Assembly: GCA_963556255.1 (NCBI GenBank)
Contig: OY744613.1
Coordinates: 47,397,546-47,461,545, forward strand
DNA: 64,000 nucleotides
Reading direction: 5' to 3'
DNA from: Allolobophora icterica
Lineage: Eukaryota; Annelida; Clitellata; Crassiclitellata; Lumbricidae
In this document: positions 3,635 through 60,240 of the stretch, piece by piece
How positions within the stretch are numbered: the stretch's first letter is position 1
Layout: the number at the start of each line of letters is the position of its first letter
Program-made: the position numbers and the translations under genes
Notes under the pieces: model-generated
Database searches by the model: none
What the model was told of the DNA's origin: nothing
The model's input: only the letters and a program-made list of their open reading frames with translations

Positions 3635-3925
3635 TTGGAATTTCTACTTCAAACATAACAAGCAGTCCTGTGGTTATAGCAATTAATAATGTCACATGCG
3701 AAGTCAGAGCCTTGACGTGTCATTCATCGGGCAATCCTGAGCCGAATTACAAATGGTTTGATTCGAATGAGAACGACCACAAAGTCCTAAGTGTAGATCA
3801 AACCTTGACATTGGCAGAAGTTAATCGGAATTACACATGCACCGCATGCAACACGATTCGAAGTGTAGCACACAACGCATCAACACACTACACCGTTTCA
3901 GACAATACCAGCACTCCAGATTGCA
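3635..3925 (+). CDS. Gene A Ig-domain exon (intact)
   Basis: Phase 1-1 exon of 291 bp between a TTTAG acceptor and a GTGAGT donor. It encodes VTCEVRALTCHSSGNPEP, YKWFDS, LTLAEVNRNYTCTAC and ends STPDC. The LTC, W and YTC residues form the Ig core. The extra VTC and terminal PDC cysteines match the pattern of gene B exon 4. Several sequons are present (NVT, NYT, NAS, NTS). Upstream exons of gene A (leader and any V domain) were not found in 1-3634 and probably lie outside the window. Confidence 0.8.
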
Positions 3926-17519: not shown

Positions 17520-17717
17520 ATAAAGCACCGATATTACTCGGTGCTATTTTGTGCGGATACTGTCTGTGCAACATAATCGCAACGATTGTTTTCCTCGTGT
17601 ATTACAACCGAAAGTCAAACACCGAAAAAGAAGAGTCCACATTCAAAAACAAAGCACAATTAAATGCCCGGTTTCCGTGTCTCCAGCGCATGTTGCCATG
17701 TATGAATAAATCCACAG
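17520..17717 (+). CDS. Gene A transmembrane exon 1
   Basis: Phase 1-1 exon of 198 bp, acceptor CCTTTCAG and donor GTAAGT. It encodes a hydrophobic helix starting ILLGAILCGY and ending IVFLVYYNR, followed by a Lys/Glu-rich juxtamembrane segment with several Cys (FPCLQRMLPCMNK). The positive-inside pattern after the helix fits type I topology. The helix resembles gene B exon 6 (G-x-L-x-G then N-I-I). It can splice directly to the terminal exon at 21947 in frame. Confidence 0.75.
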
Positions 17718-18496: not shown

Positions 18497-18619
18497 AAAA
18501 CACCGGATGCACATTCATGTGGGTCATGCTGTTCATCTTTGTGTCTATTGTGGCTGGAATTATAGCATTTCCCATCTTAGTTGCAAGTGTAAACTGCGCA
18601 AGAGAAAACGACTCAAAAG
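18497..18619 (+). CDS. Gene A transmembrane exon 2 (possible alternative cassette)
   Basis: Phase 1-1 exon of 123 bp, acceptor GCTTTCAG and donor GTATGT. It encodes a second hydrophobic helix starting TFMWVMLFIFVSIVAG, then NCARENDSK. Because it has the same phases as the preceding transmembrane exon, it may be an alternative to it or may add a second membrane pass, placing the terminal exon on the other face. A 22-bp candidate exon at 18957-18978 has usable splice sites but incompatible phase, so I do not include it in the model. Confidence 0.65.
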
Positions 18620-21432: not shown

Positions 21433-21946
21433 ATCCAGATAGTTCAGTATGATTTGAAAACAACTCAGAAATGTGTATTTGACCTTTACATTTTACTTAA
21501 AGTCGTCAATGAAGTTACTTGGTTGGGCACCACTAAGTGTTTTCGTAAATTAAAAAACCCATCATAGTCATCATGGTTTGTTGAATAGTGGCTATCTTCA
21601 GCGGACAAGGAAGTGATGAGATCCAGCTTAATCACAGGCACTTAGTCAAAATAAAACAAAACCGGTGAGGGAGAAATGATCAGGTCTGGTTCTGTAGTTT
21701 AGATCCAAATGTCAGAAAGACAACTACGGTGGTGTTTGGAATTGGAGCTGGGGAAAGATAACAAGAGGATGAATCAGGAAATGATTGTTTAGAGATGATC
21801 GTGCAGTTTTAATGAAAGAATAGTACAGTAATCGCATAAGAAGTAGAGTTGTATTGTATTGTAACACTCTAGGAAAATTTACGGTGGTGGCAACAACCAA
21901 GAACACTCCACAAACCGTCTAATAACTGTTACAATCCCGCGTACAG

Positions 21947-22137
21947 CCGCTTATGGAGACGTTGAAGACCCTTACGATGTGGTAGGACCAACACATCCTG
22001 ATCGACTATACACTTTGGAAGAACCAACTTCCGCCAAGAACACCAACGCCAAAGGAGCTAATGAAGTGCTCTATACCAGAGTGAACCCAAACTTCAATAC
22101 AGGGAAAAAAGATATTGAGGTAATTGCTAGAACATGA
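21947..22137 (+). CDS. Gene A terminal cytoplasmic exon with Tyr motifs
   Basis: Acceptor GCGTACAG. The frame entered in phase 1 stays open for 63 codons to TGA at 22135-22137. It encodes AYGDVEDPYDVV, DRLYTLEE, EVLYTRVNPN and ends KKDIEVIART. VLYTRV fits the ITIM consensus (V-x-Y-x-x-V). YGDV and YDVV are Y-x-x-V SH2-type sites. GAG-GTAATT at 22117 could instead be a donor to a further exon. The exon lies about 500 bp downstream of a hAT element. The role inferred is SH2-dependent signalling. Confidence 0.7.
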
Positions 22138-23344: not shown

Positions 23345-23510
23345 CGTGGTGTCACGACAAAAGGTTCACGGACAAAAGGTTCACCGACAAAAGGTTCACG
23401 ACAAATGGTTCACGACAAAAGGTTCACGACAAATGGTTCAGGACAAAATGTTCACGGACAAATGGTTCACGACAAAAGGTACACGGACAAATGGTTCACG
23501 ATCTTTTCAC
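23345..23510. repeat. Short iterons GACAAAAGGTTCAC
   Basis: About ten copies of a 15-18-bp unit (GACAAA-A/T-GGTTCACG) stand directly before the large satellite. They resemble iteron-built ends of the foldback element at 38648. Confidence 0.75.
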
Positions 23511-23514
23511 TGCT

Positions 23515-25800
23515 AATCCAGCTTCTAGATTGAACTACGTTTTCGTCGAGAACCCAGTTTTTAATTTAAGCTAAGCTTTGATCGGTCATCCAGCTACTAG
23601 ATTAAGCGTTAAAATGAAAGCCCAAGTGTTAATATGACGCATTTTCATCGATCATCCAGCTTCTATTTTAATTTACATTTTAATCATTGATCCCGCTTCC
23701 AGTTTAATTTACATTTTAATCATTGATCCCGCTTCCAGTTTAACTTACATTTTTATCGTTCATCCCGCTTCCATTTTAATTAACATTTCTATCGTTCATC
23801 CCGCTGCTAGTTTAATTTACATTTTAATCGTTCGTCCCGCTTCCATTTTAATTTACATTTTAATCGTCACCCCGATTCCAGTTTAACATTTTAATCGTCA
23901 TCCCGATCTTAGTTTAATTCACATTTTAATCGTCATTTCGTTTCCAGTTTAATTTACATTTTAATCGTTCATCCCGCTCTTAGTTTCATTAACATTTTAA
24001 TCGTTAATCCCGCTTTCAGTTTAATTTACACTATAATCGTTATCCCGCTTATATTAATTTACATTTTAATCATTATCCCGTTTCCAGTTTAATTTACATT
24101 TTAATCGCCATTCCGCTTCTAGTTTAATTAACTTTTTAATCGTTCATCCCGCTTCTAGTTTAATTAACATTTTAATCGTTTATCCCGCTTCCAGTTTAAT
24201 TTACACTTTAATCATTCATCCCCTGCTAGTTTAATATACATTTTAATCGTCATCCCGCTTTTAGTTTTATTAACTTTTTAATCGTTCATCCCGTTCCTAG
24301 TTTAATTAACATTCTAATCGTTCATCCCGCTTTCAGTTCAATTTTCATATTAATAATTCATCCCGCTACTAGTTTAATTTACATTTTAATCGTTCATTCC
24401 GCTTCTAGTTTAATTAACATTATAATCGTTCACCCCGCTTCCAGTTTAATTTACACTTTAATCATTCATCCCGCTCCTAGTTTAATATACATTTTAATCG
24501 TCATCCCGCTCCTAGCTTAATTAACTTTTTAATCGATCATCCAGTTCCTAGTTTAATTAACATTCTAATCGTTCATCCCGCTTTCAGTTCAATTTACATA
24601 TTAATCATTCATCCCGCTTCTAGTTTAATTTACATTTTAATCGTTCATCCCGCTTCTTGTTTAATTTACATTTTAATCGTTGATCCCTTCCATTTTAATT
24701 CACATTTTAATCGATCATCCCGCTCCTAATTTAATTTACATTTTAATCGTTAATCCCGCTTCCCTTTTAATTTACATTTTAGTCGTCATCCCGCTTCCGG
24801 TATAATTAACATTTTAATAATCATCCCGCTCCTAGTTTATTTAACTTTTTAATCGTTCATCCCGCTCCTAGTTTAATTAACATTTTAATCGTTCATCCCG
24901 CTACTAGTTTAATTTACATTTTAATCGTTCATCCCCCTTCCATTTTAATTTACATTTTAATCGTTCATCCCGCTCCTAGCTTAATTAACTTTTTAATCGA
25001 TCATCCAGTTCCTAGTTTAATTAACATTCTAATCGTTCATCCCGCTTTCAGTTCAATTTACATATTAATCATTCATCCCGCTTCTAGTTTAATTTACATT
25101 TTAATCGTTCATCCCGCTTCTTGTTTAATTTACATTTTAATCGTTGATCCCTTCCATTTTAATTCACATTTTAATCGATCATCCCGCTCCTAATTTAATT
25201 TACATTTTAATCGTTGATCCCGCTTCCATTTCAATTTACATTTTAATCGTCATCCCGCTTCCAGTATAATTAACATTTTAATCGTCATCGCGCTCCTAGT
25301 TTATTTAACTTTTTAATCGTTCATCCCGCTCTTAGTTTAATTAACATTTTTATCGATCATCGCGCTCCTAGTTTAATTTACATTTTAATCGTTGATCCCC
25401 TTCCATTTTAATTTACATTTTAATCATTCATCCCGATCCTAGTTTAATTTACATTTTAATCGTTCATCCCGCTTCCATTTCAATTTACATTTTAATCGTC
25501 TTCCCGCTTCCAGTATAACTAACATTTTAATAGTCATCCCGCTCCTAGTTTAATTCACATTTTAATCGTCATCCCGTTCCCAGTTTAATTTACATTTTAA
25601 TCGGTCATCCCGCTTCTAGTTTATTTAACTTTTTAATCGTTGATCCAGCTCTTAGTTTAATTAACATTTTAATCATTCATCCCGCTTGCAGTTTAATTTA
25701 CATTTTAATCGTTCATCCCGCCTCTAGTTTAATTTACATTTTAATCGTTCATCCCGCTTTTAGTTTAATTAACATTCTAATCGTTCATCCCGCTTCGAAG
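23515..25800. repeat. 2.3-kb satellite, unit about 37 bp
   Basis: About 60 divergent copies of a unit approximating ATCCCGCTTCTAGTTTAATT followed by TACATTTTAATCGTTC. Copies alternate TTAATTTACA and TTAATTAACA variants, and blocks of several units are themselves duplicated (compare about 24520-24720 with 24975-25190). There is no open reading frame. Confidence 0.9.
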
Positions 25801-26469
25801 AGAGGTAGTCATTTAGCCGACAAAGGACAATTCGTTCAGTTAATTTAGATAGAAAGGAAAGATTGGAGATAGGGCGTTAATATAGTTACAATGGCGCTCC
25901 GAATGGTCCCTATGGGGGGCATCGATTAATTATGTCAACAAATGTTAGGCAGTTTTCGATCTCCCCCTTGTCAACAACTGTCAAACATAAAGGACTTCCT
26001 AAAAAAATTATGTCAAAGAAAATTACCCCACCCAGAAAATTTCTATGACTCTAGCAAATGGAAAAACTGAAATTGCCGATAAACAAATGTTGTTACTGAG
26101 ATTTGAATTTGGTACTTAATGGCAACAGTACAATGTATCTGTCATAGATATTTAATTGATTTTTCCCATTCAAAAACACAATCTCGTTTTCTGTCAACTG
26201 TGTATTCAATTCGATTTTTTTATGAAAATTTCTAATTTGAACATGAACATGGTAACTTTTTTATAAGATTCCTTTTAACATCGAGAATTAAGAGCAAAAC
26301 AAGTTTCTCACTGTTTAATATTAACAATCGAAAGAAAAATGATCTTTCCATCAAAAAGAAACTCGAGATATTAGATTTTCGAAAAGAACCCAGGATATTT
26401 GCAAAGACAATATGCAGCACATATTTTCTCATTTTAGCTGGGAACAATAAACAGGATAATTTAAAACGA

Positions 26470-34023: not shown

Positions 34024-34669
34024 AATTACCCCACTTCACATCATCCCCCTCCGGTAGGCTAACTTACGTTTGTATGTAATATACCAGGCACTTTGAATTA
34101 GTCCATGAGTGGCTTTAATACGATTAACATTTCTGTGACTTTTTCAGATTTTTACAATAACTTTCAATCTTCTATGTTTCACGTGTTTTATTCAGTAAAC
34201 GTATCATGAGTTGTAAGCACAAGAATGTATCATTTTAGCTAAATCATAATTTATAGGGGTGATGTGAACAGCGCAGAGGGTAACTTGAAATCGCGTTCAG
34301 GCTACCCCGTTGGTAATATGAATTCGACTTCAGATTACCGTAGGGTAACTTGAAAGACTGGGTAGCTTGAAGTCCTTAAGCCGGTGCCATGAGGAGAAAG
34401 CAATGGAGGGCGTGCCATGCTTGAACGAATGCAACTGTTGTAATATTACTTTATTCGCTGTGCTTTTAAACTTGCTACACCTGAATCGCACTTGTTCTTT
34501 GGGATCGCCATTATTTCTTGAGGCAGACACTGACTGAAACTTCACCCACATTTTATGTGTTTGCTTTTATATTAGCGCGTTTGGAATTACTTTATTTTAT
34601 AGATTCCATGTACTACAATGTGGCGACGTTGAAAACTGATCAAAAAACAACATGACTCAGCACAAGATC

Positions 34670-36072
34670 CGGTCTATTATGCACACACGATGTGCATGAC
34701 ATCATCAAACGTGTTCATATCAGCACCGGACACGGCGGACGGGACAAAATGCTTAAGGTTTTATCTGTAAAATACGCAAGCATAACCCGAGATGTCGTGG
34801 AGCTGTTCAGGTCGTTGTGCATGGAGTGTTTGAAGAAGCGAAAACGAACAGCCGTGAAGGGAGTTGTTGTCAGGCCAATCTTAACTAAGGATTATGGTTC
34901 CCGTGGTCAGGTTGATCTTATCGACATGCAGTCCATGCCGAACGGAGAATTTAAATGGATCGTGGTATACCAAGACCATCTCACAAAGTACTGCGTGCTG
35001 CGTCCACTCACATCGAAACGGGCCTCAGAGGTAGCATATCAACTCATAGATATCTTTCTCCTTTTTGGTGCCCACAGATTTTGCAAAGCGATAACGGATC
35101 AGAATTTACCGTTTTAGTAATCACTGAGCTAAAGCTATTGTGGCCCGAGTTACTTATGGTAGCCTACACGGAAAGCCACGTCATCCGCAAAGTCAAGGCT
35201 CAGTCGAACGCCTTAACTGCGACGTGAAAAGCATGCTCATTGCTTGGTTGGGCGATAACAAATCCACAGACTGGCCAGTAGGACTCAGATTCGTCCAATT
35301 CAGCAAAAATTCCAGCTATCACACGGGAATCAAGCAATCACCTTATATGGCCCTATTTGGAGAAAATCCAAAATTTGGTCTTCGTTCAACGACCTTACCG
35401 CCTGAGATTTTAGAGCGTATGGTGACTGATCAGAAGATGACTTATTTGCAGCTTTCAATACACACACATTAGCAAAATGACAACCCGACTGGTCCAGGTA
35501 CCTCAACTACAACCGTGGACCACAACCCATATTGTCCAGGTACCTCAACTACAACTGTGGACAACAACCCATCTGGTCCAGGTACCTCAACTACAACCGT
35601 GGACAACAACCAATCTGGTCCAGGTACCTCAACTACAACCGTGGACAACAACCAATCTGGTCCAGGTACCTCAACTACAACCGTGACAACAACCAGCCGA
35701 GTTGCAAACGTTGCTGCAAACCCAGGAGATAATGTTACTATACCGTTGACAGAGGACGGGGAGATCCTCAAAACATAATGGGTGTTGTTTGTGAGCGTGA
35801 CAACAACGATCTCTATCGCATCGCTGTAAGGGCCGGAATGTTGACCGGAAAATACTCCCGTAATCAGTTTGATTTGTGTTCCCACAACCTACTCAGTAAC
35901 AATGTCATTTCAACAGAGCTGTTCAGTTCGAGTCCAAATGTGGTGGGCAAGGCTTTCTGAGATGCAACTGTGCAGGGGCTGGACGCTGCAAGACAAATAG
36001 GTGCAAATGCTTCAAGTGGAAAGTAAAGTGCAACAGTCGATGCCATTGGAGCATGTCGTGTGAAAACAAAAA
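34670..36072 (+). pseudogene. Ginger integrase (KRBA2-like), frameshifted
   Basis: In order: HDIIKRVHISTGHGGRDKM with CMECLKKRK (HHCC zinc-binding region), RGQVDLIDMQ (first catalytic Asp), ILQSDNGSEFT (second Asp, after a frameshift near 35080), HGKPRHPQSQGSVERLN (catalytic Glu), VQFSKNSSYHTGIKQSPYMA, then an in-frame TAG at 35470, five 14-residue repeats (SGPGTSTTTVDNN), a frameshift near 35775, RAGMLTGKYSRNQFDLC, and the Cys-rich tail RCNCAG...CKCFKWKVKCNSRCH. The last codons and stop lie within the right TIR. It is inactive as written. Confidence 0.75.
35485..35690 (+). repeat. 42-bp minisatellite inside the Ginger coding region
   Basis: Five near-identical units of GGTCCAGGTACCTCAACTAC plus about 22 bp, in frame with the integrase, encoding a Gly-Pro-Ser-Thr linker. 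Confidence 0.85.
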
Positions 36073-42192: not shown

Positions 42193-43160
42193 CATACACA
42201 CATGCAAGCATACTTACTTAATCGGCAGCTTTATATTGAACGTTCACGAAATTACCTACAACGATGCTAAGATCACAAATACAGGATCATAAATTTATGA
42301 AAGGCAAACACCGAATGTCTACATGATAAAATATAATTGAAGTAGGTCTTATATATATTTGCCAATATATTAGAACGGCTGAGCTTTATTCATCGTCAGG
42401 CTCGTAGGCCTGATGTTCTTGCAGGCAATACTGATCAAGATTATGCAAACCACTTTTGACCAGGCTAAACGTCGCCATCAAATGTTTGATTTTCGCGTTC
42501 ATAGGCTTTTCCCAGCGTAACTTCCGATCAATGCTACACAGCAAACAACCGGCTTAAATATGATTTACTTCCTGTTTTAAAGACTGGTTTGTAACCGCTC
42601 ATTAGTTGTTTCACCTTTTCACTTAACATCAGAAGACACTCAAGACACGAATATCCGACTGCAAATTATATAGCAAACTATATTGCTACTACTAGTGATC
42701 AGAAAAAAGATGAGCACAAGTTATGTCACAATAATTGCCACTTAAATTGATACAAAGTAAAAGTTTGGAACATAAAACATCTCAGCATACGATTCTGCAT
42801 TGCAAGAAATGTTGCGTGCATGACACATGTAGAATTAGATATGTGAAAGAAAAGCTGTCAGATTAATGGAAAACAAAATGAAGGCATTATAAAGAACATG
42901 TTGAATTTGTCAAACCGACTACTGTTTAATTGTTTCTAACTTAACTAAACTAAACCAAGTGTTTAGAAAATAAACTCTTTAAGAAAAATTAACAGTACCA
43001 ATTGGAAATTATATAATTCAATCTGAAATAAGAAAAGCAGTGAAACTACGATGCATGCAGACACTGAACAAATACGGCGAGAATAGTTGTTTAGTTTACT
43101 TTAAGAATTTAGCAAAATCGCGGTTTGGTGTCAAGTTGTGAAAGTTGTCTGATTCATGTT

Positions 43161-43339
43161 TCAAAATGCTTGGTTTATATACAATGGAGGTTTAGGCGTC
43201 AGTTTTTCGTAAGTGCTCGGTTGCAAACGAATTTCATCGGTACGTCTAAGCTCTTCGTATTGGGATGGTGCACAAGGATCTGAAGGATCCAGTATTTCAG
43301 GCTCAGAAATATTCTCTGTTCTTTTAAAATAATCTGGCA
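43161..43339 (-). CDS. Gene B exon 7: cytoplasmic tail with two ITIMs and stop
   Basis: Terminal exon, acceptor TGCACAG, ending TTT TGA. It encodes PDYFKRTENISEP, then SQYEEL, 12 residues, STYEKL, then PLYINQAF. Both SxYxxL hexamers fit the ITIM consensus exactly. The 12-residue spacing is at the long end of what an ITAM allows, so an ITAM-like reading is possible but less likely given the Ser at -2. YINQ fits the Y-x-N Grb2 SH2 site. The tail is short (about 66 residues) and has no kinase or TIR domain. Confidence 0.85.
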
Positions 43340-46300
43340 CTGTGCATACAAAAACGACAAAATCAGTTTTTTTACTAAAGTGTAATTGTAATTTATAGGT
43401 TCTACCACGCCGGTGTCTAACGCACAAGGCAGGCACCGATGGCGCACTAAAACCAAAACGTAATCACGTCAATATCCAAAGAAAAGTCCATAAGACAATT
43501 ATAGGGGCTGCGACGTTCACAGTATACCCCGTGATCGATCGAGTCAGTCGACCAAGTCGATCGAAACTCGGCCAAGTCGAGTCGGTCGAAAAAACTTCGA
43601 CTCGATCGACTTGCAAGTCGAGTCGATCATATGCTTTGACAAGTCGAGTCGATCGTTGTTTCCTCGACTTGACTCGACTTTGAAATATTTTCTTACTATT
43701 TTTTGCTGCACACTTCACAAAATGACTCACATATTGTGATTACGTAATGCTTTGTAAGCGCATAACTACCGTATTAACCTGATTTGAAGTTCAGTGCAAA
43801 CTATGAGCCTCTTGGTGATTTCGTATAGTGGAAGCTGCAGATACTTTTTTCACAGTTTTACGGTGAAAATGGAGAGATTAAGATGCATTAACATTGCGCT
43901 AGTTTAAGGAAATTTCAGCTGTGTAGTCAGCATGATGTAAAAATAGTTGTTATTTTTACATCATGGTAGTCAGTAACGACGATCTCAAAACGTTCGAATG
44001 TCTGTATGTTAGGACGGGACTGAATGCTTCGACTTTGGCCAAGAGCAGTGGCTCGGAGAGTGTTTAATAGTTGCGTGAGCTAACCTCAGGCAAAGTACAG
44101 GCCTAAGATGGATAGAACTATATATTTAGTAATCTTAGTCCTAGGAATTATACATTATATCCGCTATAACCAATAAGAATATTTTGTCATTTTATACAGT
44201 CAGTGGAAAAGTGTATTATACTAGGCCTACATATTCATGAAATGAAACGCGTCTATAGCACAATAAGTCAATAACTACTTTAGCAAGCATTAAATACAAA
44301 ACGCCATCCAAAAGTTGTGTGAGCATGCTTGTGCCTCGGCTCTACAGAGCCAAAACTTGTATGAGAATTGGCACCTTTGGCGCCATGGCTCCCGGGCCCT
44401 TGGCCCAGAGATACAGTCCAAGTCGACAAAGTCGACCAAGTCGATCGTTTATTTGCCAAGTCGATCGAGTCGACGAGAGGTCGACTAGTCGACAAAGTCG
44501 ATCGAGTCGATAGTCGGCCGAGCCAAGTCGATCGTAGCAGTTCGACTCGATCGATCACGGGGTATAGTTCACAGTTTTAGAAGAGCGACGAGTAAAGCAG
44601 ATTAGGCCCATACTTAATTTGGCATACAATCTTTACGACCTTTACTTCAATCACCAGGATATTTACGGAAGACCTTCCTGTGGTACACCTTTCTGGTGAC
44701 TTTTTACTCTCCAAAATGCAATTTCATCTAGTGACTTCAACCGGGTCATTAACCCTTTAATTTGTGAATAGCAATTCGTTAATTCGGGCTTAAAGATACT
44801 CGTAATCATTCTTTGCCCCAATCTCAAACGCTTTTAGCTGAACCAAAACTTGGGACGATAAATATATGTCTTGCCTCAAGAGCCAAAAGTATGGCTAATT
44901 TATCTCCACCCTTCTATTCGAGTAGGGCCATGGTTCTAAGACTTTTTACTTATACAATACATTATTTGGAATCCACAAGCAGTTTTTGCACATTATGCTT
45001 AACACGTAACACGGCGTTCAATCCTGTTGTGTTTAATATCTTAGTATTTTATACTTTTTACGAAAATTTATTTCATTTATAATTATACTCCTCACAATTT
45101 CACATGACTTTGCATTGAATAATATTCTCGGAACGGAAAACGAAGATACACCTTGTTTGGCTGGTTGATTTCGCAACAAGATGATCAGCAAGATTATATT
45201 CCCACCGAGCGAGATGCCGAAGAGAACGCCCATGACTATGGCTACGTCATTGTTTGTATTGAGAGTAGACACAGTAGCTGCAACTGAATCACACGAACAA
45301 ACATGATATTTGGTTAGAGATAATATTAACTATATTATTTCTCTTCCACGTAGAAACTTACACTTAGCACACAAATTCACTTATTACATGTAATATATAC
45401 TATAAAATATACTAATGTGTAGCCACATCATAGACTAATACACGATATACTATTTAGTAGATTATATTGACTAGTTTAAATTGGTTTCGCTGAGTAGCAT
45501 AGCTGTGCTTAATTACTAGTTTAAATGGGTTTCAATGTCATTAATGTGAGTACACGTGTAATCAGACTAATCAGTAAAGTCTATAAATGAACTATTGAAT
45601 GCATCATAGCATTTTAGTTTAGACAAACGTCTCTCAATCAACGCTACGTAACTTTCTGGATTATACTGGATTAGACCACAATGTTTGACAATGCATTTGG
45701 GTACTGTTGATTTAAATTATTGGGTTGATTAAACAAACATCTAAGTATATGTTTTTTTTTAAATTTATATTTCCATTTTACCATAATGATGGCGTGATCT
45801 GAGAAACTATCAGGTAATGTTTAGCTGTTGTTGAACAGATTCTGCCAACAAACTACTTGTAGATAAGCTACTGAGCCGTTTAGGAGATGGATACATACAT
45901 AATGTTACTGCGTTGCATATGATTCTGGCAAGCAGAGCTACCGATGCTATTGGTACAGGAAGTGTGTGTCAGCTTCCATGAAATACCAAGTCATCTGGGC
46001 TAACGCAGCTGAATCCCTGCGTGTTCGGTATTTTAATAGTAAAATTAATGTCAGTAGGCTAAAATACGCGTTTGAATCTAATTCCGGAGATCCTTTACGG
46101 GAAGGTACAATATTCTGGAAGAGTTTTTGTTCGGTCACGTGGAAAAGAATGTTCCTTTCTTCAGTTAGGCTATCTGTTCACTTGCTTGCATTCACTCGTG
46201 TGAGGTGGCTATTGTAGCGGTTGATATTATCATATCATACTATATATGCGTCATACAACTGATGCCTCTGTTGATGTAAACCGGTCTAAAATTGTTCATA

Positions 46301-49300
46301 ACTAAATGTTTATAAATAAGCAATTTATGAAGTTTGCCAATTTTTTCTTGCATTAATCTTTAAAATTTAGGTTCTGGATACCGACGTAAATAAGTTTTCC
46401 GACATGAAACAACTATTAGCGCTGAAAGGAAGCAAAACTATCAGTTCATGACACACATTCCTCTGCCATAATATTATGGCTTATTATATTTTTCGGCACA
46501 AGCCAGGAGTCACTGGATTTACAGTTTAAGAAAAGGATTTACAATTTGCTGTAGCATTCGCTTGGACAAAGTCGTAACTGATAGGCAGGGCATGTTTTAA
46601 GGAAAATTTATCACTGCACATGGCGAGCGCCTGAGCACATAAAAATCATAAATAATTATGAATTACTATTCTTTTCGTGCACAAACACCGGTTAACAGCT
46701 TTTCATCACTGCACATTTTGTGTATCATTGCACGTTAAAACAATCCCTGCTGATAGGCCTATAACCACATAAATCAATTATCTGTAGTACGAGCAAACAA
46801 TGTGGAAACTGTGGAAGCATTCTCCATAACTGGATTTATTGTATTTAGCATACTATAGTGTCCAGAGGCATTCGCGCACTCATTAGACTAAAAGCTAGTA
46901 ATACCGTTGACGCCTCCGCCTGTTGTCCTTCTGGACCAGCTAAGCAACTTAGTCCATGAACTCTGAACATGGTGTCATCTTTCTACTTTGGACTCTTCTA
47001 ATATTATCTTCGCTATGTTGTTTCCTGACGTATTTTCTGTTCTAAATGACATTTACAGCGCATTTGGGGTAATGCAGAGGCGCTATATTAAATAAATAAA
47101 TAGCTAAATGACTAATTGACGCCAATTTGTTCTTGTTGATAAAGGACAGAATTCAGCAGAAATCAAATCCATCAGAATATGTCGGGAAACATAATAATGC
47201 AGTGTATTCACGTAAAGGCAAACTGACAAAGTGTGAATATGGGAAGAGGAAAAATATTGCGCAAACGTGGTTTGCTAATGATTTTCGCATTATTTTAATA
47301 GAAAAATGATTTTAAATTGCAACAAGAGTATGTGTATAGAAAGCTTGAAAGGCAGGATGAAAGCCAAACGTGAATTTGAGTTTAAAGCAAAATTTAGAAA
47401 AAGTGAAGCTGGGTGTATTTCAGAAACATGTTATAACTTAGACAGAAGTTTTGGCAATTAGGTCACTATATAGAATGAGTGCAAGAATAGTTTGTATAAT
47501 GCTTGTCTCTTTCCGATAGAAGGCAATACAACTGTGTTTTCTGCTGCCTTCCTTCCAAAGTTCCGGACTGCATACGACCATACGACAGAATATCGACTGT
47601 GAGTAGACATGCTCAATGTCCCTATGCAGTAACTGTCGCGGGCGAGGCTCAAACCCGTTATCTTCATGTTAATTTTCTATTATCTGATTATTTCGTTAGG
47701 TGTCAGCAAAATTAGTCAATCATAAACATTATGAACATTTTTCGAGTTTAAAATGTTGCTTACTTGATGTTGATGAAGTCGTTGTTGATAATGTCGTGGG
47801 AAGAGAAGCTGGTAAACAATTTCATTATTGATAGAAATATATTTTCAGGCTTTGACATTGTCAATGAGCTATTTAACCACAGATGTGAAATAACTACACC
47901 GTTCCTTGCTAGGAAATTAGGGTAACTCAATTGTATTATATCAGTTAAACATGAAATTGAAGCGTATACTGTCCGACTAAGAAGAAAATGAGAACATAGC
48001 AGGGAGGCAGATGACCAGTCCACTTCCAAGCAGCCTTTGTAGACTACTAGCTTTATTGTTGAGTTGGTTAGGGGCTAATAGACTATTGTCATTTTCAAAT
48101 GCATTAAAATATATAATCCATTGATGGATTTCATAATTGTTTCCTTGCCAGTATATAAAAGTTGACTTCAATACGACAATAAAGTGCTCCATTGGAGTGG
48201 TAATTCGCAATGATGTGCAGTTTTGTTTTGAATTATTTTCTATCATACTTAAAGAGACACTGAAAGCGAACATCATCCTGTATCTTTGACAATAAAAAAA
48301 TCTTGTTTTTACCAAGAAATTCACGCATTCAACAAAACCATAAATATCTGTCATAATGGTGGCTTGTTGCTAACTGCAAAGCGGCAAACTAATAAATTGT
48401 TTCGTCTGGGTAGCGGTTCTACCGTGGTCATTGTAATCATTTTCTAAAATTGATAAAAATAATAATAATAATAAAATAATATTAAGTGTATACGTACAGC
48501 AGTTAGTTTCAGTAGCTGTTTTCGTGTCGTTATATCTTTGGCCCCTTATGTAACTGTAAGCGGTGCACTGGTATTGTCCACCAGATGTAATGGATTTGAT
48601 CGCACCAGTAGTTGTAGCATTATTGCTAAGATCCAGCCATACGTACTGAGCTAGAGGATTGGCATCTGCTGAACACGTAAGAGTTTCCTGTTTGTAGACA
48701 CAGTAATCCACTGTCGACGCTATTCTTATGTTTTCAGAAGGATCTAAAAGAAGAAAACACTTGCTTTTACAAACAACTGACATAATTCTACATGAAATTG
48801 TTAACAGTACTGTACGATAATTGCCGTTTTGTATCTTCTGAAATCTGCACAACGTCGCTTCAAGAGAAAGTAATCAGATGCACCCTCAAGCAAGGTTTAG
48901 CTAAACAGACGTCTTTAATTCAAGGCACCATTAGCAGTTGGGTAAATCAAAACAAGCTATAGATGAGATAGCGACCTGTTGTGAATGATTTTTCTCTCAA
49001 TGAATAGAGGCTTCAGGAGTTATCGACGGACGCAGAATTTAGTGGCTGTTTTCTTCTCAACCGGGTGTAAGCCGGATGCAAATAGAGACGAAACTTTCTC
49101 TGCAACTAGGCGAGATGAACCAATCGCGAATCTGGGCCAGACTGAGGGAAACGGAACTAGCATAGAGCGTGCACTAACGAACAGTGAGCACTGTCTTACG
49201 GAGGAGGGCGCATGGATAATAAGACGTCAGTCCTCGTGACCTTGAAAAACTTAATGCAGACGACAGAATCTTTTGTAGGTCACCCACCCTTTTAGATCTA

Positions 49301-52300
49301 CGGTAGGACGGAATAAGGGTCCATGAGGTTAATACCAGCGGCCGAATGCAAGATGAATATAACGCGAATGGAAAAAGACGATCGGGACGGTTACATGACA
49401 TTTGCACATACAGGCTAAGAAGTTGCCAAAAACAAGAATCAAAATGGAATTGCGAATTTAAAGTTTTTCGATTTTTCGTTTTGCAAGTTTGTTTTGGCCG
49501 TTGACAACGGTCTTTGCTTTTTGGGTTATTATTGATTTAATTGTTTATTCCTGGAGCAATCAAACGATCTCCCAATAAAGCAATCAGACAATCAGTCAGT
49601 CAATCAAACGACGGAACGAATGATTAAACGAATTATTAGCAAATTATTAGTTAGTAAGATTAATTTACTTTTTAAAAATTCTGATTGGAGCGCTGTGCGA
49701 TGTTTTGTTCTCAATGAAAATAATGATCAAGAGTATCTCAGCTACTAGGTGGAATGAACTTATCGCGCGGCTGAGGAAGACTGAGGGAACCATAGAGAGT
49801 GCAGTAACGCCGAGCAGTGAGCACTGCCTCACTGACAAAGGCGCGTGGATAATAAGCTTTTTGTAAACGCATGGGTCCTAGTGACCTTGAACAAACTGAA
49901 TGCAGACAACAAGAGCTGTTGCATGTCACCCACCCATTGAGAACTGATGTAAATCTGTGTTGAAGGGTCCATGAGGCTAATACCAGCGGACGAATGCAGA
50001 TGAATATAACGCAAGTGGCAAAGACGATTTTGACTTCCAGGCGGTGCTTTGTAGCAGCACGGTTCAACGCTGAAAATTACCGTCCATTATGCAAAACTCT
50101 TAAATTTTGCTTACGATAAATTTTATCAGTAGTAAGCCTTGAGAATTTAAGGTGCACTGCGCTTTAATTGTCTCTTGAATCAATTATAGGCCTATTTCGA
50201 AAACGATTTAGCTATTCTTCTTCAATTAATTCAAGATAAACTGAATACTTCCATAATTACGTTGCTGGTGATTTTTATCAGATGTAGGCTTCTCTGTTTC
50301 ATAAAGGAAGGTACATGTATACTCACATTGAACGTCCAGTTCTCTTGTAGAGCCGACTGCAAAATTATCCGATGGAGGAGTTGAATTGTATCCACTGGTA
50401 TTTCCTGTTATTTCAAAAACTGTCTTACACTGAAATATTGGAACTGTCGGCTTCTGTACTCTCACTGTTGCTACCAAAGTAACGTTTATCGACGGATGAT
50501 ATGTGGCGCTGGTGAATATCTGTCCTGGTGATGTTGACCAATAAGGCGAAGGACGAAGAGAAGGCGCTGGTGATGCTGGTCCATTGTAGTTTATGGTGCA
50601 AGATATGTTTAACAGATCAGCATCGACTACTTCGGAACGGTTGTACACAACGACATTTGCGACAGGATCTAAAAAGAAACAAAGAACATCGCACGGTTAA
50701 TCAGTTTTAATGACATCAATGAGGATTTTATGTACCACAATGCACATTGTTCAATCACTAATTACGATGTACACATAATCCCTATCCGACCACGTTTCGA
50801 CCACGTTAATTTCTTACAACTCTGGAGGCTGACTGGATGTAGTCGTAACCTTAGGTGACCGCATCATTCAGATGCCACAATGACCCAACCGTCCTTCAAG
50901 GATGAGTATATCCTACTCTCCACCACTCCTTACATGCACGCGAACGGTCTATTTGGTCAGGTCTTTGTGTGGTTATATTAATATAGACCAAAAGGCTTTC
51001 GAAGCTGGCCTATTAAACGGTCCGTTGTTGACCATTTTGTAATTAATTCTTCTCCACCTTAAACAATGTGAAGGTCAGCCAGAGACCTCCCACTCCAGTG
51101 TCTGTACTCAGAATACGCGAGAAACAGAAGACTTGATCAACACTTCAGATGATGCAAGATATTCTGAAGACCCTGCAGACTAGTTTCCACCCGTGTGACA
51201 AAGTCTTGGCTTGTTCAGAGATAAGAAAATGCTCCCCTGGAAGAACGTGGCAAAAAGGAATGCCATGCACTAACGACGAACAACTAAGGCCATCGCGTTG
51301 ATGCAATTAACACAACATTTTAGTAAAACTCTGCTTCTCGGGCAGGGTTGGATTTAAGATAGTTCAAATATAGTTATATTGAAACACGGAGTTTTGTAGA
51401 CATTTTCTGGTTCCTGAGCGGTGTCATGTAAATCTCGTCCTGATGTCTGAAGCCAGTAAGTCCTTTGATACTATTGATCATGACATCATTCGTAGCGCCT
51501 GTCTTCAGTATCGGCGTACATTCGTCTCTGAGCGCACTCACAAATGCTTTTTTATTTCAAACTTTGTGTCTGGTCCATGGTCTCACTTGGTCTTTTGCAG
51601 CGTTTCTTCTTAGGCTTTATACCCTATGTCATCTACATCATTGATCTTTCTTTATTGGGGGTTTCGGCTCATTAGTATGCTGATGACTGGCATGTTTATA
51701 TCCAAGGCATACTTTTATATAAATTTTCGGTTATCAGATCACGAGTTTTGATTGTGATTTCACTAGAAGCGACTATCGATTGATATCTAGGACATTATGG
51801 TAATGTCATCATGATTTAAATCATACTAAGTAAGATTACATTGCATTAGGCCTACACTAAAATCACCAGAACAACCTTTCGAGACCACGAGGACCTCATG
51901 ACCTTAAGTAAGGACATCATAGACCTTTCATCTTCATCAGTTCAGTTTCGTGTTGAAAGCCCCCAAATTTTCGAACAAATAATTATAATTACGATAAGGC
52001 CTACGTGAGTGTACCCAATTACATTTGGGTACACTCACTTTATAGGCCAGCATTATTTCTATGAGAAAATAAATGTTGGTTTAATTAAAGATATATAATA
52101 TTTTATGTATATATAAAAATGCTTATTTTTCCGATTGTCGGCTACTAGATTTCAAATCAACGTCTTGAGAGGTCAGGTACGGTATCCTAATATCACGTTA
52201 AACTAAAAGATTTTAACTAAGATGCACAGAAGGGTAATCTGGCTTGGACAGATTTTTTATATCGATTTCCTCTGTCTGCAACGTTCTTTCCCATCCAGTT

Positions 52301-54021
52301 ACGCGTTTCAGGAACTGCACTGGTTACGTATGCTGAACGTACTTATTATCTAGTTGCTGCGTAATTGTTTTATCTTAGCAAGCTTTAAGTCTCTGTCTCA
52401 TCCACACCTGACTGCAGATCCTTTAGCTCTACCGCAACAAAAACGGTCTACATGAAACCGATGAGCGGTATGAAAGCTACAAATTCAAAGAGCGAACTAT
52501 TAATTAGCAGTAGCCCAAAAGCTACTGGAGATAAGATGCCACTTGAGTACCCGAGGACCCCAGTTGGTCGCATGAGGGTCATAGCCAAATAACGTACTTG
52601 ACGTCATAGTATTTGGATAAGTTAGTTCATATCAGAAAAAACGAAAACAAACTAAATAACACAGAAAAAGAAATTGTTGGTAATACTATCAGTTATTATA
52701 AGTTTTAAAGTTAAGTCTAATTTCACCTTTTAAGTAACATGTATGTTGATACTCACCAATGACCGTGACCAAACTTCTGTATATGGTTATTGAGCCATCA
52801 AAGCATGTATAGACTCCAGCCTGTTGCATTGTCACATTTGCAATAATTAGTCTGCATATGTTTCCTCCTGGTTGTTCTGTTCTGTAATATGCTGCATTGT
52901 TTCCAAAGACAATGCAGCCATCTGCAATCACCACCACATTCGTGGTCCCATCCGTTGTATGTATCCACCTAGATAATCCCATGTTGCTTGTAGAGCAATC
53001 CAGCATCGTCTGACCGTTGATTAAAGCGACTGCATTCGGACCCGGAGTTTGTCCACGTACAACATTGACTAATAACATTCATAACATAGCCTAATACAAA
53101 AAAAATAATTATGTGCATAGTCATTTTATATTTCGATTGAGTTTTGTATGTTTTATTTGTACAACATCGCCTAATAACATTTATAGCCTACCTGTAATAT
53201 AATGTATAGGCTGTAGTGGTAAAATTAGGTGAGTAAACGCTGCAGGTTAGTTTCCCGAAACACTGAGGGGGATGTGCCCCTCCCAAGGAAGAAAATATTT
53301 TGAAATACGAAACGATTTGGGGAGCTTTTAAGCAGACTTGTTGTCCTCGAGACCAAGTTCTTGGTCTCGAGTGCACTCGAGTTCGTTTTTAAAAGTCTTG
53401 GTCTTGGTCTTGAGACCAAAAGTCTTGGTCTTGGTCTTGAAGTTCAAAGTCTTGGTCTTGGTCTTGAGGTTCAAAGTCTTGGTCTTGGTCTCACAGTAAT
53501 AATTTCATGAATAATCCAACTTCTAGATTGAGTTTTACTATGAAATGTTTTCATCGCTCGTGCAATGTAAATAATTTCCGACGCTAAAATGGGGTTTTAC
53601 ATAACTATAAGTCACTTACTTGGGACAGCAGAGGATAGAAACAATTGTTGTGGCCATCATCGGAGCGAAGAGGGTTGAGGACAAAACAAGACAAGGCCAA
53701 AGAAGGCATTTGGTCTTACCTCTCCTTCATTTCGATTCTCTGTTGTAATTAACAAACAGCTTAATCTTGTTGATTTAGCTCTTCTTAGGAATTCATAAGT
53801 AAATAACTAACCTGTAGCAGTAGCGGCACCACGATTTGAAAAGTAGTACGGCAAATTAGGGGTACGGCTAAAAGTGGTGCGATAAAAGTATGTTGTTGCC
53901 GTATCACCTTAGAAAGTGGTACGGCAAAAGCCGTACACAAGTAAAGGCGGCGCCGCCACTGACCTGTAGTAATCGATAGAAAAAGACACAAAAGTAGACG
54001 CGATGCAGGTGTAAGCGTCAT
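43161..54021 (-). CDS. Gene B: complete Ig-superfamily receptor with two ITIMs (7 exons, 435 aa)
   Basis: Gene model read on the minus strand. Exons are 54021-53964, 53068-52757, 50668-50327, 48743-48498, 47808-47764, 45277-45152 and 43339-43161. All introns are GT-AG and phase 1, and the exons total 1308 nt (435 residues plus stop), which supports the model. Order: signal peptide (1-19), V-type Ig (about 20-123), second Ig (124-237), third Ig (238-319), Ser/Thr stalk (320-335), transmembrane helix (about 346-369), cytoplasmic tail (370-435). The tail has S402-Y404-L407 and S418-Y420-L423, both matching the ITIM consensus S/I/V/L-x-Y-x-x-L/I/V, and Y430-I-N, a Grb2-type site. In known families such tails recruit SHP phosphatases, so an inhibitory cell-surface receptor is inferred. 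The ligand is unknown. I do not recognise a named orthologue. The alternative is an adhesion molecule with signalling motifs. Confidence 0.85.
43523..44566. mobile_element. 1.04-kb hAT-like element with AGTCGATCGAGTCGA iterons, in a gene B intron
   Basis: Both ends read TATACCCCGTGATCGATCG outward-in and are flanked by a perfect duplication GTTCACAG (43515-43522, 44567-44574). The subterminal 150-170 bp on each side are dense in AAGTCGA/TCGATCGAG. No transposase is seen. It lies between the tail and transmembrane exons of gene B and contains the 35-bp micro-palindrome at 43931. Confidence 0.85.
43923..43973. repeat. 35-bp palindromic micro-insertion with 8-bp duplication
   Basis: The arms CATGATGTAAAAATA and TATTTTTACATCATG with a GTTGT loop (43931-43965) are flanked by GTAGTCAG on both sides (43923-43930, 43966-43973). 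It is inserted in the middle of the hAT element. Confidence 0.8.
45152..45277 (-). CDS. Gene B exon 6: transmembrane segment
   Basis: Phase 1-1 exon of 126 bp, acceptor GTTGCAG and donor GTGTAT (weak). It encodes a Thr/Asn-rich juxtamembrane stretch, then an uncharged hydrophobic helix beginning VAIVMGVLFG and ending IILLIILL, then RNQPAKQ as a basic stop-transfer. There is no Lys, Arg, Asp or Glu within the helix, so it lacks the charged residue used by receptors that pair with ITAM adaptors. This agrees with a self-contained ITIM tail. It resembles the first gene A transmembrane exon. Confidence 0.85.
46850..47102 (+). mobile_element. LINE 3' tail fragment
   Basis: GCGCATTTGGGGTAATGCAG, then AGGCGCTATATTAAATAAATAAATA: hairpin plus (AAAT)n tail of the common LINE type. 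Coding sequence upstream is not recognisable. Confidence 0.45.
47764..47808 (-). CDS. Gene B exon 5: 45-bp Ser/Thr stalk exon
   Basis: Very small phase 1-1 exon between acceptor TTTACCAG and donor GTAAGC. It encodes SLPTTLSTTTSSTS, a Ser/Thr/Pro segment typical of O-glycosylated stalks just outside a membrane anchor. It was chosen because its phase matches both neighbours, and including it gives a whole-gene length divisible by three. The reading frame would also survive skipping it, so it could be an alternative cassette. Confidence 0.7.
48498..48743 (-). CDS. Gene B exon 4: membrane-proximal Ig-like domain with four cysteines
   Basis: Phase 1-1 exon of 246 bp, acceptor CTTTTAG and donor GTACGT. 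It encodes YCVYKQETLTCSADANP (C252, C261), YVWLDL (W273) and GGQYQCTAYS (C297), a compact C2/I-type Ig core. It ends ETNC (C319). The additional Cys in strand A and at the exon end (C252/C319) recur in the gene A Ig exons and probably form a second disulfide, a family signature. NNAT and NDT sequons are present. Confidence 0.85.
49095..49400. repeat. Intronic repeat, copy 1
   Basis: Shares with 49738-50035, in direct orientation, GAGCACTG..C, GCATGGATAATAAG, TGACCTTGAA, GGTCACCCACC, GGGTCCATGAGG, TAATACCAGCGG and ATGAATATAACGC. It lies in the intron between gene B exons 3 and 4. Confidence 0.7.
49738..50035. repeat. Intronic repeat, copy 2
   Basis: Direct-oriented homologue of 49095-49400, roughly 75-80 percent identical by eye. 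The class is unknown. Confidence 0.7.
50327..50668 (-). CDS. Gene B exon 3: second Ig-like domain
   Basis: Phase 1-1 exon of 342 bp, acceptor TTTTTAG and donor GTGAGT. It encodes LNISCTI (C147), SPYWST (W167) and PIFQCKT (C204), the Cys-Trp-Cys core of an Ig fold. The segment between strands B and C is long and Pro/Ser-rich. Three N-glycosylation sequons are visible (NRS, NIS, NVT). The exon ends LDVQ before a split Tyr codon. Its divergence from the other two domains makes V or C typing uncertain. Confidence 0.8.
51430..52450 (+). mobile_element. L2-like LINE fragment
   Basis: Degenerate frames give EASKSFDTIDHDIIRSACLQ (AFDTIDHDIL block), YADDWHVYIQG-like coding near 51675-51705 and FQELHWLRMLNVLIIYLL (LHWLP block). 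Many stops. In the intron between gene B exons 2 and 3. Confidence 0.6.
52757..53068 (-). CDS. Gene B exon 2: V-type Ig domain
   Basis: Phase 1-1 exon of 312 bp. The domain has the B-strand Cys (C44 in LDCSTS), the core Trp (W54 in SRWIH) and the F-strand motif QQAGVYTC (C108). The hydrophobic RLIIANV E-strand precedes it and the exon ends in a G-strand-like SLVTVIG. Cys-to-Cys distance is 64 residues, which is V-set length. An extra Cys pair (C71, C91) probably forms an intradomain bridge across C'-D. The donor is GTGAGT. As the membrane-distal domain, it is the likeliest ligand-binding unit. Confidence 0.85.
53207..53290. mobile_element. Partial copy of the 62863 MITE
   Basis: GGCTGTAGTGGTAAAATTAG and GGTTAGTTTCCCGAAACA match the left part of the hAT MITE at 62863-63070. 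The right end is absent. Confidence 0.6.
53338..53490. repeat. CTTGGTCTTGAG iteron cluster
   Basis: Repeated GTCTTGGTCTTG with inverted CTCGAGACCAAG, followed by a satellite-like unit AATCCAACTTCTAGATTGAG (53515-53535) related to the 23515 core. Lies in gene B intron 1. Confidence 0.65.
53818..53961. mobile_element. 144-bp hAT MITE on the gene B exon 1 splice donor
   Basis: Ends CAGTAGCGGCACC and CAGTGGCGGCGCC (reverse complement of the right end). Perfect duplication ACCTGTAG at 53810-53817 and 53962-53969. On the gene strand that duplication is CTACAG-GT, the exon end plus donor dinucleotide, so a working donor remains on the exon side. Confidence 0.85.
53964..54021 (-). CDS. Gene B exon 1: start codon and signal peptide
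   Basis: The exon encodes MTLTPASRLLLCLFLSITT: a short basic/polar N-terminus followed by a Leu-rich hydrophobic core, as in a secretory signal peptide. It ends ACTACA-G before GT (phase 1) and joins exon 2 to make Val20. The donor GTCAGT is formed by the target-site duplication and the first bases of a MITE inserted immediately downstream (53818-53961). The ATG is the only one in frame before the hydrophobic core. Upstream sequence has a CCAATC motif (minus strand, near 54055), but no convincing core promoter was identified. Confidence 0.8.
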
Positions 54022-58596: not shown

Positions 58597-60240
58597 TTTT
58601 TGTAATTGTAATTGTAACCGAAAACTTATATAGCGCCACTCAAATCAGCGGCGTTTTCAACCCGCATCAATGCCGGCACGAGCAAAAAGGAAAGTTTTCA
58701 GGCGTCTACGGAACTGGAGAGGAGAGAGGGCAAGAAGCTCTTGGCGGAGAAACAAGGGGAGACAGTTCCAAGCAGAGGGGCCAACATAGGCGAAACTTCT
58801 GGATTGTGCCGTGGAAGATCGCATGCGAGGGACAACCATAAGGCCGCGAGCCGAAGATCGCAAGGAAGCCCTCGCAGGCAAGGAAGAAACTGGGTTGCAA
58901 AATTTCATTAGGTAAGACGGAGCAGAGGCAGTAAGGCAGTTGCGCATGAGAGTGAGGGTTTTAAACTGAATTAGCTGTTGAGCAGGGAGCCAGTGGAGGG
59001 AATCACGGATAAAGGCAGAAATGTGGGCAAACTTAGGAATGTCACCTATAAGCCGAGCAGCAGCATTAAGGATAGTCTGGAGTTTGTGCATATTGGAGGA
59101 GGAAAGGCCAATGTACACAGCATTGCCAAAGTCTACCCTAGTGCAGATCAGAGCATGGACCAGTGTAGTAACAGCATGAAATGAAAGAGACTTGCGGATG
59201 GATGGGAGCTGGCGTAGATGATAAAAGCAAGATCTGGATACAAGGTTAACTTGATCAGTAAAGGAGAGGGTAGGGTCAAGGACAATCCCCAAGTCACGAA
59301 CAGAGCAGGAGAATTGAATGAGGGGAAACCTAAGATGTAGGGATTCAAAATCAATCTTGCTGAGTTGGAGGCGACCACCGAGCCAGATAAACTGAGTCTT
59401 GTCGGGGTTCAGCCGCAAGCGATTAGAGGAAAGCCAAGAATCCAGAGCAGAGGCTGCTGCTAAGATGCGTTCGACCATTTGGACAGCAGAAGAGGCTGGA
59501 CCATGAATTAGAGACTGGGTGTCATCAGCATACTGATGAGACGAAACCCCATACTGCTGGAAAATCCCCCCAAGGTCCGAAGTATATAGGATGAAGAGCA
59601 GAGGAGCAAGAACAGAGCCTTGGGGGAGACCATAGGAGGTAGTGGCCCAAGGAGTACGATGTGATCCAAAGACCACAGATATGGACCTTTCAGAGAGGAA
59701 AGAGCGGAACCATAAAAGGGCACTATCAGAGATACCGAAGGATATAGATAGCCGATTTAAGAGAATAGAGTGGTCCACCGTGTCAAAGGCTGCGCTGATA
59801 TCATAGAGAGCTAACAGGGTGACATGACCACGGTCAAGAGCTTGGAAGACGTCGGCTAGGAGCCGGACTAGTAGGGTTTCAGTTGAGTATGATTTCCTAA
59901 ACCCAGATTGAAATTTAGGCATGAGGGAATTAGATTCGAGGTAGTGGACCAATTGAAAAGCAACACACCGTTCCAGGAGCTTAGAAAGGAAGGAAAGGTT
60001 GGAGATGGGCCTAAAATTAGCTGGAGAATTAGGATCCAGACCTTGACGCTTAATGGAGGGAAAGACGACAGCCCGCTTGTGGGAGACAGGAACAGAACCC
60101 TGGGTCAGAGAGGAATTACAAAGTAATTGCAAAAACGGACCAAAGTCATCAATGAAATCCTTAAGTAAAAACGGAGGCAACAGGTCCAATTCACAAGACT
60201 TAGAGGGGGAGTCTAGAACTAGTTGACGGATGGTAGTTAA
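58597..60240 (-). mobile_element. L2/CR1-like LINE, 5'-truncated, with long open RT frame
   Basis: An uninterrupted minus-strand frame (58657 to about 60236) encodes most of the reverse transcriptase: SPSKSCELDLLPPF, PANFRPISNLSFLSKLLERC, FQSGFRKSYSTETLL, LLALYDISAAFDTVDHSILL, YGLPQGSVLAPLLFILYTSD, SSHQYADDTQSLIHG (catalytic YADD), RLRLNPDKTQFIWLG, DSLHWLPAQQ, SAWNCLPLFLR and RRLKTFLFARAGIDAG. A hairpin CGCCGCT/AGTGGCG, CTATATAAG and a (TTACAA)n tail follow. The endonuclease is missing, so it is a dead-on-arrival but young copy. Confidence 0.9.

Follow-up and report, generated by a model that had tools for sequence, protein, structure and literature searches.

A predicted three-domain immunoglobulin receptor with paired tyrosine boxes in its tail, from a clustered gene family of the annelid Allolobophora icterica

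A stretch of 64,000 nucleotides from the annelid Allolobophora icterica (assembly GCA_963556255.1, contig OY744613.1, positions 47,397,546 to 47,461,545; hereafter the window) carries on its minus strand a seven-exon gene predicted to encode a type I membrane receptor with three immunoglobulin (Ig) domains. The best reading of the gene is that of a clustered type I Ig immunoreceptor with a tail resembling an immunoreceptor tyrosine-based activation motif (ITAM). An earlier note on the same DNA, made from the sequence alone, had described a complete invertebrate Ig receptor with paired immunoreceptor tyrosine-based inhibitory motifs (ITIMs).

Gene model and predicted protein

Joining the seven exons on the minus strand (58+312+342+246+45+126+179 nt) gave 1308 nt, which translate into 435 amino acids and a stop codon without an internal stop. 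All internal boundaries lie in phase 1 and the introns are of the GT-AG type; the exon number, the 1-1 phases and the 435-residue open frame of the earlier note were thereby reproduced. The elements of the gene are listed with their positions in the window.

53964..54021, minus strand: exon 1, start codon and signal-peptide-like stretch MTLTPASRLLLCLFLSITT (read by eye), phase 0 to 1
52757..53068, minus strand: exon 2, Ig domain 1 (V-like), phase 1-1, 25 paralogous copies read
50327..50668, minus strand: exon 3, Ig domain 2, phase 1-1
48498..48743, minus strand: exon 4, Ig domain 3, phase 1-1; the relatives P0001 and P0002 keep its junction with exon 3
47764..47808, minus strand: exon 5, Ser/Thr stalk, 45 nt, phase 1-1
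45152..45277, minus strand: exon 6, predicted membrane-spanning stretch, phase 1-1, paralogues at window -74.6 kb, at 140.9 kb and at locus L094
43161..43339, minus strand: exon 7, predicted cytoplasmic tail with the stop codon; all 36 matches to the tail lie on contig C13
43200..43259, minus strand: YEEL-x12-YEKL, two YxxL boxes at an ITAM-like distance, both of which also match the loose ITIM pattern
43173..43181, minus strand: YIN, a YxN motif, YxN being present in 10 of the 16 distinct open family tails

Read by eye, the protein begins with a signal-like segment and continues through three Cys/Trp/Cys blocks, a Ser/Thr stalk and an uncharged hydrophobic stretch into a tail with SQYEEL, STYEKL and YIN, the last of which we take to be a Grb2-type Src homology 2 (SH2) site. 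The three Ig domains, stalk, uncharged helix and tail motifs of the earlier description were thus recovered. Each Ig domain occupies its own phase 1-1 exon and could therefore be gained or lost without a break of the frame; members with two, three and four Ig domains occur in the family. A fourth Ig exon was not found in this gene, as two fourth-Ig queries returned only Ig3 itself below E 0.3 in 43000-48800.

Two weak points count against the model. Its Pfam matches all stayed under the gathering cut-offs (best Ig_3, 22.9 versus 30 bits), and the 45-nt stalk exon 5 could be skipped without a frame break. A Foldseek search with the predicted model of Ig2 gave nothing at E<=0.001; the top row was a COPI component (E 0.014), and the rows after it were mostly major histocompatibility complex class II and T-cell-receptor complexes. 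The Ig2 model has neighbours with an Ig fold.

A search for protein relatives (7999 candidates scored, matches being a lower bound) matched at least two. P0001, the closer of them and the nearest relative found, has 504 aa on a contig of 1813 nt and is 65% identical over 77%; P0002 has 359 aa on a contig of 1638 nt and is 51% identical over 69%. P0001 passed the Pfam cut-offs for Ig_3 (49.4 bits), Ig_2, I-set and ig, and membership of the Ig superfamily by curated profile comes by way of this relative, not from the model itself. Both proteins run unbroken through the Ig1/Ig2 and Ig2/Ig3 junctions and therefore support these two splices; from their open length, the short contigs appear to be transcripts. 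Other observations argue against the complete chain. P0001 and P0002 have C-termini other than this tail, P0001 passing after Ig3 into a fourth Ig domain and a different end with two hydrophobic segments. No tail-bearing transcript or protein was found at E<=1 among 77 candidates when residues 338-435 served as query, and neither the relative search nor the tail search returned a transcript that joins these Ig exons to this tail.

Further evidence on the chain came from paralogous genes. The 100 kb on either side of the window were fetched and compared with the exons of the gene (positions before the window carry a minus sign). A second predicted gene lies on the minus strand at window -67049 to -75258 (about 8 kb) in the order Ig1-Ig2-transmembrane (TM)-tail, just 3' of a run of N. 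Its exons of 321, 345, 144 and 176 nt, with boundaries chosen by hand in a prediction from sequence alone, meet in phase 1 and are open from Ig1 to the stop. Locus L094 keeps the same collinear order, Ig1-Ig2-Ig3-Ig4-TM-tail, within about 7 kb. On the plus strand, a weak tblastn match (E 0.16) at window -54626 resembles exon 1 and has the same phase-1 donor; a paralogous Ig1 exon follows 3.8 kb downstream of it. L094 and the surroundings of window -69.1 kb hold DNA that resembles the stalk exon (77% over 43 nt and over 74 nt, respectively); a further stretch at 144.6 kb overlaps only the last bases of exon 5. Every exon of the seven-exon gene is backed by paralogous sequence, and a real gene for a type I three-Ig cell-surface receptor of the predicted architecture is, in our judgement, close to certain.

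Family cluster and selection

The whole protein was searched against the genome at E<=1, with 97 of 3039 candidates scored, so that the counts are lower bounds. At least 97 matches were obtained, 80 of the 97 on contig C13 (53.5 Mb; rows sorted by hand). Among those listed, the C13 matches comprised 28 Ig1-like, 24 Ig2-like and 19 Ig3-like stretches, seven tails, one TM and one TM-to-tail match, and 75 of the 80 fell at 45.17-48.26 Mb; the remaining 17 listed matches were on C3 (11), C2 (4), C9 (1) and C1 (1). With the tail as query, 37 candidates gave 36 matches at E<=1 (28 at E<=1e-3); of the 36, 33 fall at 45.5-48.3 Mb and three at 41.6 Mb. All lie on C13, so that no contig other than that of the Ig cluster was found to carry the tail exon, which is nearly always inside the cluster. 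By these matches, the gene is taken to be a member of a large, tandemly duplicated, multi-megabase Ig receptor family on one contig. The complete type I Ig receptor that the earlier note had proposed for an invertebrate is thus supported as a gene model, in that the exons join and the tail exon is part of that family cluster.

The best-matching stretches of 25 Ig1 and 25 Ig2 copies were free of stop codons (copies picked by match, one Ig2 copy partial). Median pairwise ratios of nonsynonymous to synonymous substitution (dN/dS) were 0.49 for Ig1 (25 copies), 0.39 for Ig2 (25 copies) and 0.54 for the tail (9 tails), with dN above dS in 2 of 284, 0 of 274 and 3 of 35 finite pairs, respectively; the figures are descriptive, since pairs share branches, copies were chosen by match and the tail value uses an uncleaned set of nine tails that includes decayed ones. 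Several family copies look decayed, a point that speaks against the receptor reading: the tail at window 117 kb has a frame change, the copy at 120-144 kb has lost its TM donor, and Ig1 of L094 matches in two frames. Between the gene and its nearest tail copy there are four nonsynonymous and no synonymous changes, which fits decay of that copy, as its TM donor is lost.

Tyrosine motifs of the tail

From the 36 tail matches, 23 distinct loci were read, and these yielded 16 distinct open tails. Five tails were dropped as unclear or decayed (w117k, L031, L033, L107, L109) and two as duplicates (L096, equal to L095, and L101, one residue from L100); L097 is the locus at -75 kb. Two of the tails kept, w120k and L030, come from copies damaged elsewhere.

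Two strict ITIMs were present in this gene only (1 of 16) and at least one in 7 of the 16 tails. Two YxxL/I/V boxes occurred in 13 and the arrangement YxxL-x12-YxxL in 12, the spacer having 12 residues in all of these and its residues varying; YxN was found in 10, and an immunoreceptor tyrosine-based switch motif (ITSM) in none of the 16. The residue after the tyrosine (pY+1) is Glu in all 29 boxes of the family tails, both boxes of this gene included. At position -2 the same boxes have T (13), S (7), A (4) and five other residues once each. What is constant in the family is thus the YE-x-L pair and its distance, not the -2 residue of the ITIM. In an alignment of nine tails, three of them decayed or unclear, the first box tyrosine (Y1) and the Tyr of YxN were invariant. 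The uncleaned nine-tail set used earlier had two ITIMs in one tail, at least one in five and YxN in eight, and it had the ITAM-like pair in seven, with a spacer of 12 in six and of 10 in one.

These counts can be set against published definitions. An ITIM reads S/I/V/LxYxxI/V/L. In a study of PD-1 and BTLA, a medium-sized nonpolar residue at pY+1 is named as one defining feature of sites for SHP1, where residues that are polar, charged or bulky are less efficient; the study makes no such claim for SHP2 (PMC8631942). Measured by this criterion, which concerns SHP1 and not SHP2, both boxes of the gene deviate with their Glu. The ITAM pattern is given as YxxL/I(6-12)YxxL; in Fc-gamma-RIIA it is part of the receptor chain itself and has 12 spacer residues (PMC6433993). 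The paired ITIMs of the earlier note are weakly supported: both boxes of this gene match the ITIM pattern, but two strict ITIMs are found in 1 of 16 tails, and Glu at pY+1 is shared by 29 of 29 boxes. Neither the ITIM pair nor the inhibitory role proposed with it is favoured by the family as a whole.

Several points weigh against an ITAM-like tail. SQYEEL and STYEKL both match S/I/V/LxYxxI/V/L. Among 100,000 shuffles of the gene's own tail, 0.6% had two strict ITIMs, 13.9% had one or more, and 2.2% had the ITAM pattern. For this gene by itself, the ITIM pair is the less common of the two patterns by chance, and the case for the ITAM therefore rests on the family. In the family itself, the paired pattern is missing from 4 of the 16 tails, including that of the second predicted gene, whose box 1 reads YEEP, and a spacer of 10 was seen in a frame-changed tail that had been dropped. 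Plain descent could also account for the common length of the spacer. YEEL-x12-YEKL agrees with YxxL/I-x(6-12)-YxxL/I at the long end of the spacer range and falls outside a narrower definition, in which the typical ITAM spacer is 6-8 (PMC5071834). The ITAM of Fc-gamma-RIIA is called non-canonical, and ITAMs can also inhibit (PMC6433993). Overall, the ITAM-like reading appears to fit the family somewhat better, and for this gene alone both readings fit.

Candidate signalling partners in the genome

Searches of the genome returned at least 127 matches to SH2 (150 of 210 candidates scored) and at least 152 to the protein tyrosine phosphatase (PTP) domain. At C1, C8, C2 and C19, two SH2 matches and a PTP match follow one another on the same strand; C20 shows this order less neatly. 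The N-terminal SH2 (N-SH2) of the C1 locus had PTPN11 as its best solved match (E 1.8e-32), as had that of C8 (1e-26). The PTP exon of C1 was matched better by receptor-type PTPs (3.6e-22) than by PTPN11 (1.2e-16). SHP-family phosphatases, for which the earlier note had suggested looking, are thus represented by SH2-SH2-PTP arrays, with the PTP exon of C1 not a clean match. An SHP2-like exon array is present in the genome; the presence of a partner shows possibility only. An SH2 exon on C15 scored 45.4 bits with PTPN11, 44.1 with SYK and 41.8 with ZAP-70, values that do not separate these proteins; that the exon is no more than a candidate for a Syk-type kinase counts against the ITAM-like reading.

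As an observation on the phosphatases themselves, the up to five SH2-SH2-PTP loci form an apparent expansion of SHP-like phosphatases; mammals have two of this type. At least 21 PTP-domain matches also lie within about 4 Mb at C1 85.4-89.5 Mb, a tandem PTP expansion.

Neighbouring receptors and other genomic observations

The plus strand of the window holds a candidate gene for a second receptor type, with parts at 3635-3925, from about 12575, at 17520-17717, at 18497-18619 and at about 21872-22137. It consists of Ig exons, two hydrophobic exons and another tail with AYGDV, PYDVV, LYTLEE and VLYTRV. Paralogues of its hydrophobic exons and tail lie at 87.6, 88.9 and 90.4 kb, and similar hydrophobic segments are joined in P0001. 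If both hydrophobic exons span the membrane, the tail would lie outside, for which we offer no explanation.

Further clusters of Ig1-like exons (32-41% identical) occur at C3 72.8-73.6 Mb and C2 9.55-9.68 Mb, with no tail match there. On C1, positions 36139707-36140591 match residues 22-323 (Ig1 to Ig3) at 26% identity in a single open frame of 505 aa, apparently intronless there.

Long frames at window 58657-60240 (minus strand) and 34656-35472 (plus strand) resemble, by eye, retroelement reverse transcriptase/integrase, and an imperfect 36-nt tandem repeat array extends over about 23504-25900. On the mitochondrial contig C328, nad2, cox1 and cox2 are consecutive genes of the same strand (names given by eye), and ARAGORN found no tRNA in that stretch. 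When its COX1 is aligned with a mammalian COX1, TGA stands at W in 10 of 11 positions, ATA at M in 12 of 14 and AAA at K in 4 of 5, while AGA stands at G (2), S (1) and P (1) and AGG at S (1). These codons speak against the echinoderm code (ATA Ile, AAA Asn), and hence against an echinoderm origin that was considered at first, and against the vertebrate code (AGR stop); the best fit is the standard invertebrate mitochondrial code, as expected of a protostome or a cephalochordate. The AGA and AGG counts are compatible with a tunicate, but conserved Ser positions (NNMS and FSW in COX1, WYWS in COX2, judged by eye) favour AGR = Ser and make a tunicate less likely. A second COX1, an open frame of 721 aa without TGA at C257:6513-7808, may be bacterial sequence in the assembly.

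Discussion

With ITAM-like boxes in its tail, the receptor might work as follows. Ligand binding would cluster it, Src-family kinases would phosphorylate both YxxL boxes, and the two together would form one docking site for a tandem-SH2 protein, comparable to the single-chain ITAM of human Fc-gamma-RIIA; the YxN motif may recruit a Grb2-type adaptor. The output would most likely be activating, as phagocytosis or effector release, with SHP2-mediated inhibition as an alternative mode. Duplication, loss and decay of copies within the present cluster may yield a germline repertoire like that of KIR, LILR and FcR or of the FcoR clusters of Botryllus. Phosphotyrosine signalling by the box pair is probable. 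The assignment of the tail to the ITAM rather than the ITIM type we hold at even chances, and no higher because the pY+1 criterion applies to SHP1 while the phosphatase in the genome looks SHP2-like.

An inhibitory receptor, whose boxes would act as ITIMs, recruit the SHP2-like phosphatase and damp an activating partner, perhaps of the same cluster, is rather unlikely. It draws on the match of both boxes to the ITIM pattern, on the SH2-SH2-PTP exon rows with PTPN11 as best match of the N-SH2 of C1 and C8, and on two titles in the reference list of PMC11999971 that call oyster IgIT receptors inhibitory. This reading is weakened by the single tail with two strict ITIMs and the 7 of 16 with at least one, by the charged Glu at pY+1 throughout, a class of residue reported to be less efficient for SHP1 (PMC8631942; SHP1 only), and by the C1 PTP exon, which lies closer to receptor-type PTPs than to PTPN11.

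The boxes could also serve mainly as AP-2 sorting signals (YxxPhi) of an endocytic or adhesion molecule without immunoreceptor signalling. YxxL does fit the YxxPhi pattern, and the members with two, three and four Ig domains are in keeping with adhesion families. However, sorting leaves unexplained why a spacer of 12 recurs in 12 of 16 tails, Glu follows the tyrosine in 29 of 29 boxes and YxN is present in 10 of 16, and we consider it improbable. That the exons do not form one protein, with TM and tail exons as relics and Ig exons that use other C-termini (e.g. of the TM1-TM2 type on the plus strand), is suggested by the end of P0001, with its fourth Ig domain and two hydrophobic segments, and by the C-terminal copy at window 120-144 kb that has lost the corresponding donor, but is very unlikely in view of the same-strand Ig-TM-tail order in this gene, the -75 kb gene and L094, the confinement of tail matches to the Ig-cluster contig, the open frames and the dN/dS medians below 1.

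The clustered receptor with an ITAM-like tail has several known counterparts in layout, vertebrate inhibitory Ig receptors such as the Siglecs MAG and CD22 among them. Human Fc-gamma-RIIA has two Ig domains, unlike the three found here, and binds IgG; it was not among the 14 solved chains matched by the protein at E<=1. It is alike in being an Ig receptor with an own-chain ITAM of the form YxxL-x12-YxxL (PMC6433993). For Botryllus FcoR, 53 loci are reported so far, with a V-type Ig, a sushi and two C2-type Ig domains and with ITIM, hemITAM or core-tyrosine (Y-x-x-I/L/V) tails; these are likewise clustered germline type I Ig receptors of an invertebrate with tyrosine-motif tails and large copy number (PMC12065747). 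They differ in their sushi domain and their length of 520-610 aa (PMC12065747), as compared with 435 aa here, and no sushi domain was among the seven Pfam families listed for our protein at E<=10. Oyster CgIgIT2 is another invertebrate Ig receptor with a tyrosine-based tail motif and, by description, has five Ig domains as opposed to three Ig exons here; the review text assigns it an ITAM and activation, while the two titles mentioned above say inhibitory (PMC11999971). The Alr family of Hydractinia, again compared by description, is a 41-member invertebrate Ig family of the allorecognition complex with ITIM/ITAM motifs (PMC12065747; PMC11999971). Lamprey NICIP, which comes from outside the jawed vertebrates, likewise joins Ig domains to a tail with two boxes, but it has two Ig domains, boxes 17 residues apart and a demonstrated recruitment of SHP-1/SHP-2 (PMC5071834).

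The layout of vertebrate inhibitory receptors that the earlier note recognized in an invertebrate is indeed the same, and it has already been described in Botryllus (PMC12065747) and oyster (PMC11999971). The kind is therefore known; the novelty lies in the set of domains, in the cluster described here and in the x12 pair, within literature searches that were aimed at neither annelids nor molluscs beyond oyster. Tentatively, an invertebrate cluster of Ig immunoreceptors may have been built independently, with tails that converge on an Fc-gamma-RIIA-type ITAM plus adaptor site and neighbours that carry a second, unrelated Tyr-rich tail, as a counterpart of vertebrate paired-receptor clusters. 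If this is true, a germline-expanded repertoire of Ig receptors with ITAM-type tails would exist in a lineage far from the vertebrates. It would strengthen the view that an Ig ectodomain combined with paired tyrosine boxes is a solution reached repeatedly in self/non-self recognition, and the x12 spacing together with Glu at pY+1 would put the question of ITAM versus ITIM within direct reach of phosphopeptide tests.

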